29,108 bases of DNA, taken from an uncultured Dialister sp. (GTDB lineage: Bacteria > Bacillota > Negativicutes > Veillonellales > Dialisteraceae). Numbering within the stretch: position 1 is the stretch's first letter; every line of letters begins with the position of its first letter. The position numbers were made by a program, and so were the translations under genes. Below, one piece after another: positions 19,219 to 28,925 of the stretch. The stretch spans positions 1-29,108 of the forward strand of contig CAKQBK010000028.1 of assembly GCA_934216155.1 (NCBI GenBank), read 5' to 3'. The notes under the pieces are model-generated. The model was not told the DNA's origin, made no database searches, and worked only from the letters and a program-made list of their open reading frames with translations.

Positions 19219-19419
19219 TCAGATCCTTTGAATTGTAGATATTGCGTGTTTATAAATCAGCTGGGAACGGTTCTCGCTGACTAAAAGTACGGTGAAGCTG
19301 TCAAAGGATTTTACTTTTCCTTTGAGCTGGACACCATTCATCAAGAAAATGCTCACCGGGGCATTTTCCTTTCTAGCTTCGTTCAAAAATGTGTCCTGCA
19401 GATTCATTTTACCTTCCAT
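19219..19419 (-). CDS. hfq: RNA chaperone Hfq
   Basis: The 66-residue Sm-like protein forms a hexamer that binds small RNAs and mRNAs. The Sm1 motif ([20 protein letters not shown] and [14 protein letters not shown]) and the Sm2 motif (YKHAISTI) are clear. The C-terminal tail is very short, as in other Firmicute-type Hfq proteins. The ATG at 19419 has AGAGGAG upstream; a second in-frame ATG at 19407 also has GGAAGG close by. The gene overlaps the end of miaA by 11 bp and is followed closely by the PLP lyase gene, the usual miaA-hfq arrangement. Confidence 0.96.
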
Positions 19420-26217: not shown

Positions 26218-27540
26218 TTACACTAAAGTCCCCTTCAAAACCCAAGTCTGCGCTGTTTCTACCTTCGCTTCCACAGTATCGCCCACTTTGAGTCCTTCTT
26301 TATAAGGGAAGAGAATCATCTTATTTGTCGACGTGCGGCCGAACCAATTGGTTTCATCCTGCTTGGAAGGTCCTTCCACAATGACCGTGTAAGTCTTTCC
26401 TTCCATTTCTTTGTTCAGTTCCAAACTGATTTCATTTTCCACATCCATCAGTTCCTGCAGGCGGCGATGTTTTGTTTCGTCATCAATCTGGTTCTCCATA
26501 CGAGCTGCTGGTGTTCCTTTACGAGGAGAATAAATGAAGGTATAGCAAGAATCGAAACGAATTTCCTTCAAAAGTTTCACCGTTTCCTGGTGCATTTCTT
26601 CTGTTTCTCCCGGGAATCCGGTAATCAAATCGGTGGTAATGGCAATATCTGGCATTTTTTCACGGACATACGCTACCAGTTCCTTGAAACGCTCAATGGT
26701 ATAGCCACGATTCATAGCCTTCAGCATTTCCGTAGAACCATGCTGCACCGGCAGATGCATATGGCGTACCACTTTCGGAGAAGCTGCCATGGCATCCACC
26801 ATATCATAGGTCATATCTCTCGGATGGGATGTCATATAGCGAACCCGTTCAATCCCATCAATTTTATCGATAGCACGAATCAAAGTTCCAAAATCAGTGC
26901 CATTCCGGAAATCTAATCCATAAGAATTGACATTCTGTCCCAAAAGAGTGACTTCCTTATATCCCTCATTGGCCAATTCCTGAATTTCCTTGCAAATGGC
27001 TTCCACCGGACGGCTCAGTTCCCGCCCGCGGGTATAGGGCACGATGCAATAGGTACAAAACTTATTGCACCCCTGCATAATCGGAATCCAAGCGAAAATA
27101 TGAGACTTACGAACCGCTTTCAAGTCACTGTAATCACTGACACTGTGAGGATTCCGTTCAGTCTTTACCACATGACTGCCTTTGGCATTTTCGTTAGAAA
27201 TAATATCCTTCAAATCATGAATATGGTACGGTCCAATCACGAAATCAATAATCGGCATACGCTCGATCAGTTTGCCCTTATTCTCCTGGGCCATGCACCC
27301 GGCAATGCCCAAAAGCAAACGAGGATTCTTCTCCTTCAGCTTTTTGATTTCCCCAATCTTGCCATACACCTTTTCTTCCGCATTCTGACGGATGCTGCAG
27401 GTATTCATAATAATAATATCCGCATCGTCCATCTTTTCAGCCGGCTGATACCCCAATTCCTCCAGCTGTCCATTGATACGTTCCGTATCAGATTCATTCA
27501 TTTGGCAGCCGTACGTAAGGGTAAAATATTTTTTATCCAT
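26218..27540 (-). CDS. miaB: tRNA-2-methylthio-N6-dimethylallyladenosine synthase MiaB
   Basis: The 440-residue radical SAM methylthiotransferase converts i6A37 to ms2i6A37 in tRNA. The N-terminal UPF0004 domain provides three cysteines for an auxiliary cluster (C12 in YGCQMNESD, C48 in NTCS, C82 in GCMAQ). The radical SAM motif GCNKFCTYC supplies C158, C162 and C165. A TRAM domain ends the protein. Together with MiaA in this window it completes the pathway. The start has AAAGGA 9-10 nt upstream. It is monocistronic; a structured RNA candidate with its own terminator lies upstream on the same strand. Confidence 0.97.
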   Translation of the reverse strand: MDKKYFTLTYGCQMNESDTERINGQLEELGYQPAEKMDDADIIIMNTCSIRQNAEEKVYGKIGEIKKLKEKNPRLLLGIAGCMAQENKGKLIERMPIIDFVIGPYHIHDLKDIISNENAKGSHVVKTERNPHSVSDYSDLKAVRKSHIFAWIPIMQGCNKFCTYCIVPYTRGRELSRPVEAICKEIQELANEGYKEVTLLGQNVNSYGLDFRNGTDFGTLIRAIDKIDGIERVRYMTSHPRDMTYDMVDAMAASPKVVRHMHLPVQHGSTEMLKAMNRGYTIERFKELVAYVREKMPDIAITTDLITGFPGETEEMHQETVKLLKEIRFDSCYTFIYSPRKGTPAARMENQIDDETKHRRLQELMDVENEISLELNKEMEGKTYTVIVEGPSKQDETNWFGRTSTNKMILFPYKEGLKVGDTVEAKVETAQTWVLKGTLV

Positions 27541-27702
27541 ATCTTTATTCCTTTATATAATACATATAAATACATTTTACAACTAGACAATTATCGTATT
27601 ATTATATCATACTTTTCTTAGATTCTGCAGAAAAAATATGATGTAAGAAAAACAAACTCTATGACTTGGAAATAGTAGTGAATAGATGAACAACCATTCA
27701 TC

Positions 27703-27757
27703 TGTTGTTAGTTGTTAGTTGTTGGTTCTTATTGATAAAGCAACTAAATGACCAACC
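27703..27757. repeat. Heptamer palindrome (GTTGTTA / CAACTAA)
   Basis: In-phase words GTTGTTA twice, GTTGTTG, GTTCTTA, then after a short centre AGCAACT, AAATGAC, CAACC. It separates the miaB leader region from the terminator of the upstream RNA. Confidence 0.7.
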
Positions 27758-27770
27758 TCTTATAAAACGC

Positions 27771-28068
27771 AAAAAATCCCACAACAAAAACAGGGGAAAC
27801 TTTCGCACTACGGGCCTGAAATCGTAATGCCTGGTTCTCTTTGTTTCTGCTGCGGGATTTTACCTGCATCAGGATCAAATTCCTTTCGGAACTTGCCAAC
27901 TCTCTTATTAAGTTATACATCAGTGAAGGCGAGAAACTTCACCCGGTTGAGCGGCTGTGTCCAGCCGGAGCTCTTATGGATTCGTCATCCGTAGGCAACT
28001 TGCAGGTCCTATCCCCACAGCGTTTTTTTGATCGGCGCCGTGCGCTATGGTCTTCTGACCTTTGCCTT
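27771..28068 (-). ncRNA. Candidate structured non-coding RNA, about 300 nt, family not identified
   Basis: On the minus strand a good promoter precedes a sequence rich in perfect helices and ends in an intrinsic terminator. Helices (plus coordinates) are: GGTC/GACC hairpin with AGAA loop (28049-28060); CGGCTG/CAGCCG with 4-nt loop (27952-27967); GTGAAG/CTTCAC (27923-27942); TTCC-GAAA-GGAA tetraloop (27880-27891). A long-range pair of ACCTGCA (28001-28007) with TGCAGGT (27862-27868) is extended inward by TTGCC/GGCAA (27994-27998 with 27893-27897). The 3' end is a 19-bp stem (27842-27860 with 27774-27792) enclosing an inner GCATTACG/CGTAGTGC hairpin, followed by six uridines. I see none of the core motifs of RNase P RNA, tmRNA or SRP RNA. 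It could be a stand-alone RNA or a leader acting on miaB. Confidence 0.7.
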
Positions 28069-28074
28069 GACATC

Positions 28075-28103
28075 ATCATACACGATATGATTTGAAAAAT
28101 CAA
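28075..28103 (-). promoter_or_regulatory. Sigma-70 promoter of the 300-nt RNA
   Basis: On the minus strand, TTGATT (28098-28103), an exact 17-bp spacer, then TATGAT (28075-28080). This is the best promoter match in the window. The expected start is near 28068, just before the first stable hairpin. Confidence 0.7.
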
Positions 28104-28194
28104 GTGTTTTGGAAAACTTTGTTCTTACACGTTCTGTAATCGCAAAAATAGCTCTTAGAGAGTCTGTAAGCCCATGACGTGTATACTTATTTGG

Positions 28195-28250
28195 GTGACT
28201 AGGGACTTGTGACTGGTGACTAGGATCTAGTAAGTAGGATCTATTAATTA
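28195..28250. repeat. Heptamer array (GTGACTA/GGATCTA), 8 units
   Basis: In-phase GTGACTA, GGGACTT, GTGACTG, GTGACTA, GGATCTA, GTAAGTA, GGATCTA, TTAATTA. It shares its first words with the arrays at 4809-4906 and 10444-10527 but has no complementary arm. Confidence 0.8.
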
Positions 28251-28346
28251 GTTTGTTTAACATAGAAAAAACGCTCTATATCACGTACTTCTTTTTAATA
28301 TCAATCCATGTGGAACAAGGTCCATTATATTTGCTTTTATTTGCGC

Positions 28347-28372
28347 CAAAAGAAAAGCACCCTTACGGGTGC
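28347..28372 (-). terminator. Intrinsic terminator of the 125-nt RNA
   Basis: On the minus strand, GCACCC, loop GTAA, GGGTGC (28357-28372), then TTTTCTTTT (28348-28356). It is a textbook intrinsic terminator with no protein-coding gene upstream of it. Confidence 0.85.
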
Positions 28373-28473
28373 CTTTCCGTACGCTTGGCAGGCGTCCGAG
28401 TCTCCTGCATCTCTCGGGTTTCCCCTGTCTAACCATCGGCGCGTGGGCCGGACGAACTCCCCCACCTCAAACG
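28348..28473 (-). ncRNA. Candidate structured non-coding RNA, about 125 nt, possible pseudoknot, family not identified
   Basis: On the minus strand a consensus TATAAT (28480-28485, no clear -35 box) precedes a GC-rich transcript ending in a strong terminator. GTACG (28472-28476) pairs with CGTAC (28379-28383) and closes the domain. A GGG-GAAA-CCC hairpin lies at 28416-28425. CCGAG (28413-28417) can pair with CTCGG (28396-28400), and the interleaved GCAGG (28404-28408) with CCTGC (28388-28392), which is the topology of an H-type pseudoknot. An alternative long-range helix CGTCCG/CGGACG (28449-28454 with 28393-28398) competes with the first of these, so two exclusive folds are possible. It might be a riboswitch-like or regulatory RNA, but no gene follows it in the sense direction for more than 800 bp. 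Confidence 0.6.
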
Positions 28474-28526
28474 TACTTAATTATAGAATACCACTTTTAT
28501 CCTTATTTCACCACTTACTTTGTTTT

Positions 28527-28562
28527 CTTCACAATAGCGGTCTCACCTCTATCATCATTTCG
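28527..28562 (+). repeat. Short intergenic repeat ACAATAGCGGTCTCACC, copy 1
   Basis: TTTTCTTCACAATAGCGG, then TCTCACCTCTATC and TCATTTCGAC, recurs at 28799-28840 with few changes. At the second copy it runs directly into the CATTCCGACC...GGAATC element, so the two modules are joined there. Confidence 0.6.
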
Positions 28563-28798: not shown

Positions 28799-28925
28799 TG
28801 TTTTCTTTACAATAGCGGTCTCACCTCTATCGTCATTCCGACCAACGTGGAGGAATCTTTGTGTTATTCCCATCAGCTCTTTGTTTGTCAAGCGATATGA
28901 AATGAGACTTCCCGTTTTAGTATAA
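28799..28925 (+). repeat. Composite intergenic repeat: ACAATAGCGG module joined to the CATTCCGACC element, copy 2
   Basis: The left part repeats 28527-28562. The right part (TCATTCCGACC through ACTTCCCGTTTTAGTAT) repeats 966-1062 at the other end of the window in the same orientation. Confidence 0.7.

Follow-up and report, generated by a model that had tools for sequence, protein, structure and literature searches.

The window analysed here, a stretch of 29,108 nucleotides, very probably encodes, on its minus strand, a member of a real and independent RNA family that is uncatalogued and lineage-restricted, as judged by comparison with seven homologues. We lean towards regarding this RNA as the product of a stand-alone non-coding RNA gene belonging to a dispersed, multi-copy Dialister family, with proposed roles as dimer and as regulator. 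Judging from the product of its miaB gene, which shares 86% identity with the protein of Dialister sp. UBA1703 and 85% with that of either D. succinatiphilus or Dialister sp. UBA7295, the source of the window is Dialister, a common genus of the human gut and mouth, or a close relative.

The predicted RNA gene of the window

The predicted transcript and the signals that delimit it are the following:

27771–28068, minus strand: predicted transcript of about 298 nt, its start taken from the −10 box and its end from the U-run
28075–28103, minus strand: promoter in the sequence, TTGATT (28103–28098), a 17-nt spacer and TATGAT (28080–28075)
27774–27860, minus strand: 3′ domain, an exactly paired 19-bp terminal stem (27860–27842 with 27792–27774) enclosing a hairpin (27830–27805), with a corresponding long stem when it is folded jointly with relatives
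27771–27776, minus strand: U-run in the sequence, six U, of the terminator-like end

The genes nearby include miaA, hfq, mutL, mutS and miaB, and hfq is indeed in the same window, at 19219–19419 on the minus strand. The RNA lies upstream of miaB and on its strand, between that gene and a skipping-rope RNA (RF02924; 28475–28380, minus strand, 45.5 bits), which lies about 310 nt upstream of the RNA start. The skipping-rope RNA is on the same strand but is a different family; none was found in the regions fetched around the other copies, and a search of seven genomes revealed one in G015 alone, approximately 0.7 Mb from its RNA copy. The literature matches listed for skipping-rope RNA included no RNA paper. 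In the same part of the window a repeat beginning AATGAYGATAGAGGTGAGACCGCTATTG occurs twice, at about 28531–28559 and 28809–28837 (minus strand), and by eye resembles a small repeat element.

The minus-strand promoter TTGATT-17-TATGAT that the first-pass annotation had named is present and agrees with the consensus at nine of 12 positions. A scan of 27500–28500 gave five promoter-like sites versus 2.7 in shuffled sequences, so that by itself the pattern is weak evidence. The −10 box gains weight because the same position, 6–7 nt 5′ of helix P1 (see below), is occupied in all eight copies of the family (TATAAT in six, CATAAT in one, TATGAT in the window); the −35 element is not conserved among the eight.

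That positions 28068–27771 form a compact structured unit was also found: the fold of 28085–27760 has an energy of −113.5 kcal/mol, whereas shuffled sequences average −89 (z −4.45), and none of 100 shuffles was equally stable. The 5′ core of the window copy folded alone gave z −1.84, with nine of 200 shuffles equally stable, and the core-only folds of five copies (z −0.06 to −1.84) are not exceptional in stability. The 19-bp terminal stem followed by six U is exact, the three outermost A-U pairs of the stem using part of the U-run. A terminator scan that allows loops of 3–8 only reported none in the window region.

A nested pairing across about 140 nt, likewise proposed at first, does exist in the window RNA (ACCUGCA, 28007–28001, with UGCAGGU, 27868–27862; span 145), but it and the covariation-supported helix P1 compete with each other. 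The best energies with the long-range pairing and with P1 are −106.5 versus −106.3 for 28068–27771, and −110.4 versus −107.3 with three extra 3′ bases. Because of this competition, and because in none of the seven relatives is that segment matched downstream by an exact complement longer than 6 nt, the 145-span pairing is probably not the conserved fold.

Homologues, their distribution and their loci

A DNA search of the genomes of 13 relatives gave short matches only (18 in nine of the 13 genomes, E up to 1). One 22-nt stretch of the query recurs three times in Dialister sp. UBA1703 (G001) and three times in D. succinatiphilus (G002), and the places carrying it, once read, share one architecture. 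Searching with a G002 copy gave seven homologues: three in G002 (L058, L059, L060), three in G001 (L061, L062, L063) and one in G015 (L064); a fourth G001 match is the 3′ part of the L063 copy and is left out of the count. The carriers are three of the 12 genomes of the Dialister family that were searched, with dispersed copies, up to three per genome. Since no copy was found in the other nine, the RNA family looks dispensable.

Two covariance models were used: R1 from the alignment of the seven relatives with the window excluded, and R2 with the window included. R1 recovers the window copy end to end with 47.9 bits and an E-value of 1.9e-9, which, the relatives having been found via 22 nt of the window, is circular for that piece and not for the other hundred or so positions. 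The other copies, being the model's own sequences, score 131–155 bits, and nothing else in the window matches R1 at E up to 10. Applied to 61 genomes of the order, R1 found G001, G002 and G015, plus one match in G007 (L068, E 0.78), which was rejected by eye as coding-like. R2 was run over 380 genomes of the class, which we take to be Negativicutes, with nine candidates scored per genome under strict filters, such that weak relatives may be missed; five genomes were matched with E no greater than 0.1, and three of them are the accepted carriers. L110 (coding-like) and L111 (no core motif), at E 0.08–0.09, were rejected on reading. With all candidates scored in the 12 family genomes, the carriers were again three, and there was one further match each in G001 and G003, at E 0.7–1.

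Outside these genomes, a degenerate form of the 22-nt motif gave no match in viral contigs, a 14-nt piece gave 26 stretches there of which none has the fold, and the phage and plasmid collections searched with the G002 copy L034 gave none. L104 (31 nt, E 0.18) was rejected as a weak model match. In a Firmicutes sample the motif with up to one mismatch occurred in one of 398 genomes, G002 itself. The RNA family thus looks narrow (three of 380 genomes of the class), and the idea of a lineage-specific RNA is borne out by homologues with covariation in three of the 12 genomes of the family. By eye, the core shows one-base length differences, and no start codon is common to all copies. The literature matches listed for Dialister plus RNA terms contained no study of Dialister RNAs, and for two listed surveys of structured bacterial RNAs (PMC6429828, PMC8632094) the word Dialister is counted 0 times.

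At the gathering cut-offs of Rfam 15 no family was found at the window RNA or at the seven relatives' loci; the search gave no high-scoring match to a known family. At E up to 10 the window region had five weak matches only (E 1.8–5.1), all far below cut-off and mostly to snoRNA and microRNA families of eukaryotes. For six loci searched at E up to 1 there were likewise only weak matches below cut-off. These searches bear on the suggestion of a divergent 6S RNA (RF00013), likewise an independent RNA gene and of a similar order of size. Size and independence fit, and the carrier G001, a draft genome, has no 6S match. But a search of the region with E as high as 10 gave no RF00013 match, G002 and G015 each carry a distinct 6S RNA gene, scoring above cut-off, elsewhere in the genome, and the fold differs: that of the window is branched, whereas 6S RNA is a rod with a central bubble. 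A 6S identity is hardly credible. As to 6S RNA itself, no match was found in G001 and G003, whereas the four other genomes searched have one; draft assemblies may explain this.

The copies of the relatives lie at several sites. L059 and L061 are between rpsO and pnp, antisense to both (rpsO of L059 read by eye); at that site G015 has rpsO, a short gap and pnp without the RNA (both genes read by eye). L062 is between ftsY and cobN, antisense to both, and in G002 the collinear copy is L060. L063 is flanked by an M20-peptidase gene, with dus beyond it, and a solute-binding-protein gene, again antisense to both, so that at least four of the seven relatives' copies (L059, L061, L062, L063) are antisense to both neighbours. 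L058 adjoins a haemagglutinin-repeat gene; on its other side gyrA follows at about 2.9 kb, with an unassigned open reading frame between. L064 is between two transposase genes, one with an HTH_38 domain, presumably IS30-like, and one of IS110, before which the copy ends by about 700 nt. No gene recurs beside all copies among those looked at, and the copies look like independent units gained and lost between species.

It had been suggested that the RNA is a long leader of miaB, which could make it a 5′ riboswitch or attenuator, and the window copy is indeed on the same strand, with 230 nt from the U-run to the miaB start. The other loci tell against this. In the miaB loci of 13 relatives, taken with up to 6 kb on each side, no copy was found. 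In L001–L003 the gene before miaB is by eye ribH-like, without the RNA, and a miaB search in viral contigs found no relative. Moreover, the RNA ends in its own terminator-like structure, and the relatives' copies share no common downstream gene, L059, L061, L062 and L063 being antisense to both neighbours. We regard a miaB leader as very improbable.

A different question is whether the RNA belongs, as the part that is transcribed, to a small dispersed element, mobile and perhaps non-autonomous, whose copying would explain spread and copy number. The copies are at different loci, and that of G015 is flanked by transposase genes. In G002, L058 and the rpsO-pnp copy, together with their flanks, align at 85% along 604 bp and at 90% along a further 152 bp, and the duplication behind L058 (about 750 bp) thus exceeds the RNA in size. 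Furthermore, a 165-bp repeat or a 58-bp piece of it is near copies of G002 and G001. It should be noted, however, that the rpsO-pnp and ftsY-cobN copies occupy the same sites in G001 and G002, and that compensating changes keep the core fold. A mobile element is unlikely, though of some weight, and we continue with the reading as a stand-alone RNA gene.

The 165-bp repeat itself is at L059 8552–8716 and L058 5166–5330, at approximately 150 bp from the RNA copy in one of these G002 cases and 2.5 kb in the other, and its 58-bp piece is at L063 2807–2864, about 240 bp from the G001 copy; by eye it has inverted ends and is MITE-like. Long inverted-repeat hairpins are found at L047 1023–1089 and L032 1965–2049, some 200–300 nt from RNA copies; they draw sub-threshold matches from microRNA and plastid 3′ UTR models. 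The bridge RNA of IS110 elements is a structured RNA with variable loops. The likeness consists in the variable loops and in the IS110 gene near the G015 copy; unlike in that system, no IS110 gene is among the scanned neighbouring open reading frames of the G001 and G002 copies.

The conserved core and the palindrome in the P3 loop

The features of the 5′ part of the RNA are:

27940–28067, minus strand: conserved 5′ core domain, R1 positions 1–127, from the R1 match
27993–28067, minus strand: helix P1, 28067–28062 with 27998–27993, AGGCAA/UUGCCU (AGAUG/CAUCU in relatives); three of five modelled pairs changed on both sides
28015–28050, minus strand: helix P3, 28050–28043 with 28022–28015, with a 20-nt apical loop, from energy fold and covariation
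28033–28040, minus strand: 8-nt palindrome CGGCGCCG in the P3 loop, followed by an A-tract (28029–28023); proposed symmetric kissing loop
27999–28005, minus strand: invariant CUGCAAG between P1 and P2, in eight of eight copies
27965–27986, minus strand: near-invariant GACGAAUCCAUAAGAGCUCCGG, from comparison of the copies

The core structure comprises 28 pairs in six helices, and over eight distinct rows 96.0% of the cells are paired, in an alignment that was fitted to the structure. P4 is the weakest helix (87.5%). When the partners are slid by 1–3 columns, pairing falls to 31–43%. Twelve of the 28 pairs changed on both sides, and none of 500 shuffles reaches any of five measures. The covariation that the first-pass annotation had asked about is present, mostly as window versus rest: of the 14 doubly changed cells, 12 are in the window row and two in the G001 copy L063, which makes few independent events. 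On this alignment the core covariation appears strong, on few independent events.

In the folds of L063, L064 and L048 a hairpin CAUCU-CGCAU-AGAUG is preferred over P1. The window copy is unable to form this hairpin, and comparison therefore favours P1. A consensus fold that joins the window copy to six of the relatives includes the long 3′ stem, which in the copies is then followed by 4–6 U; as predicted from sequence, every copy has its own −10 box and terminator-like end. The hairpins inside the terminal stem number two in the five relatives folded whole, L060 and L062 having been folded with an incomplete 3′ end, and one in the window, and these inner hairpins vary between paralogues. The lower number, together with the window copy being the most divergent of all, could mean that it is a decaying paralogue of the family, but its substitutions in P1, P3 and P4 come in pairs, its palindrome has given way to a different one, and it has both a promoter and a terminator-like end. 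Decay is accordingly quite improbable.

In all eight copies the P3 loop opens with two bases, then a perfect 8-nt palindrome and then an A-rich stretch. The palindrome is GUGGCCAC in six copies, GAGGCCUC in G015 and CGGCGCCG in the window, and these three states represent perhaps two changes only. In letter shuffles of the window loop, a test chosen after the palindrome had been seen, a palindrome falls at that offset in 0.04% of cases and somewhere in the loop in 0.47%. The isolated 8-mer duplex has an energy of −14.5 to −16.5 kcal/mol, loop strain being ignored. The concerted change points to intermolecular pairing, since the central bases of the palindrome cannot pair with each other within one chain.

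The loop is thus kept self-complementary through sequence change in eight of eight copies; rival single-molecule folds exist. In such folds the palindrome is partly paired (mean unpaired 0.45–0.91), half of the window palindrome can pair with the 3′ arm of P3, and in L063 and L064 part of the palindrome folds locally into a small hairpin. The alternative P3 fold of the window copy, which uses 28042–28036 instead, lowered our estimate for a dimer. That the RNA is a homodimer via the P3-loop palindrome is, from the sequences, a serious proposal to which we give slightly less than even credence.

Proposed function and known RNAs

From these features we can only infer a function, as follows. A homodimer would form by pairing of the palindromic P3 loops of two molecules. 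In the dimer the near-invariant core (CUGCAAG, GAYGAANNCAUAAGAGCUCCGG) would be exposed to a shared partner, probably a protein. More speculatively, the fast-changing 3′ hairpins might give each paralogue its own RNA target, and the paralogues might together serve as related trans-acting regulators. A trans-acting regulator with a variable 3′ part is possible, if rather doubtful. The terminal U-run and the A-tract are compatible with an Hfq-dependent sRNA, nothing more. As the paralogues of G001 and those of G002 carry the same palindrome, heterodimers are conceivable. We are still more hesitant about a new RNA class of small multi-copy homodimers or paralogue heterodimers that combine a constant 5′ scaffold with paralogue-specific 3′ recognition hairpins.

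The nearest comparison is with OLE, GOLLD and ROOL, which are, like the window RNA, stand-alone structured bacterial RNAs and which are ornate RNAs forming RNA-only homo-oligomers. For OLE and GOLLD, adjacent loop bases that covary as palindromes have been argued to indicate symmetric intermolecular pairing, and their loop palindromes covary between palindromic states, as here (PMC12286853). In contrast to these three, the Dialister RNA has about 300 nt, a single 8-nt palindromic loop and up to three copies per genome, reaches no Rfam cut-off and is known here from sequence alone.

The covariation of the P3-loop palindrome, which is of the kind used for OLE and GOLLD, suggests by analogy a homodimer, and on its sequence the Dialister RNA appears a good candidate for a self-pairing RNA. 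It would stand as a compact candidate of about 300 nt beside the few natural RNAs that have been argued to be homo-oligomers, and such RNAs may be findable from loop palindromes that change together.
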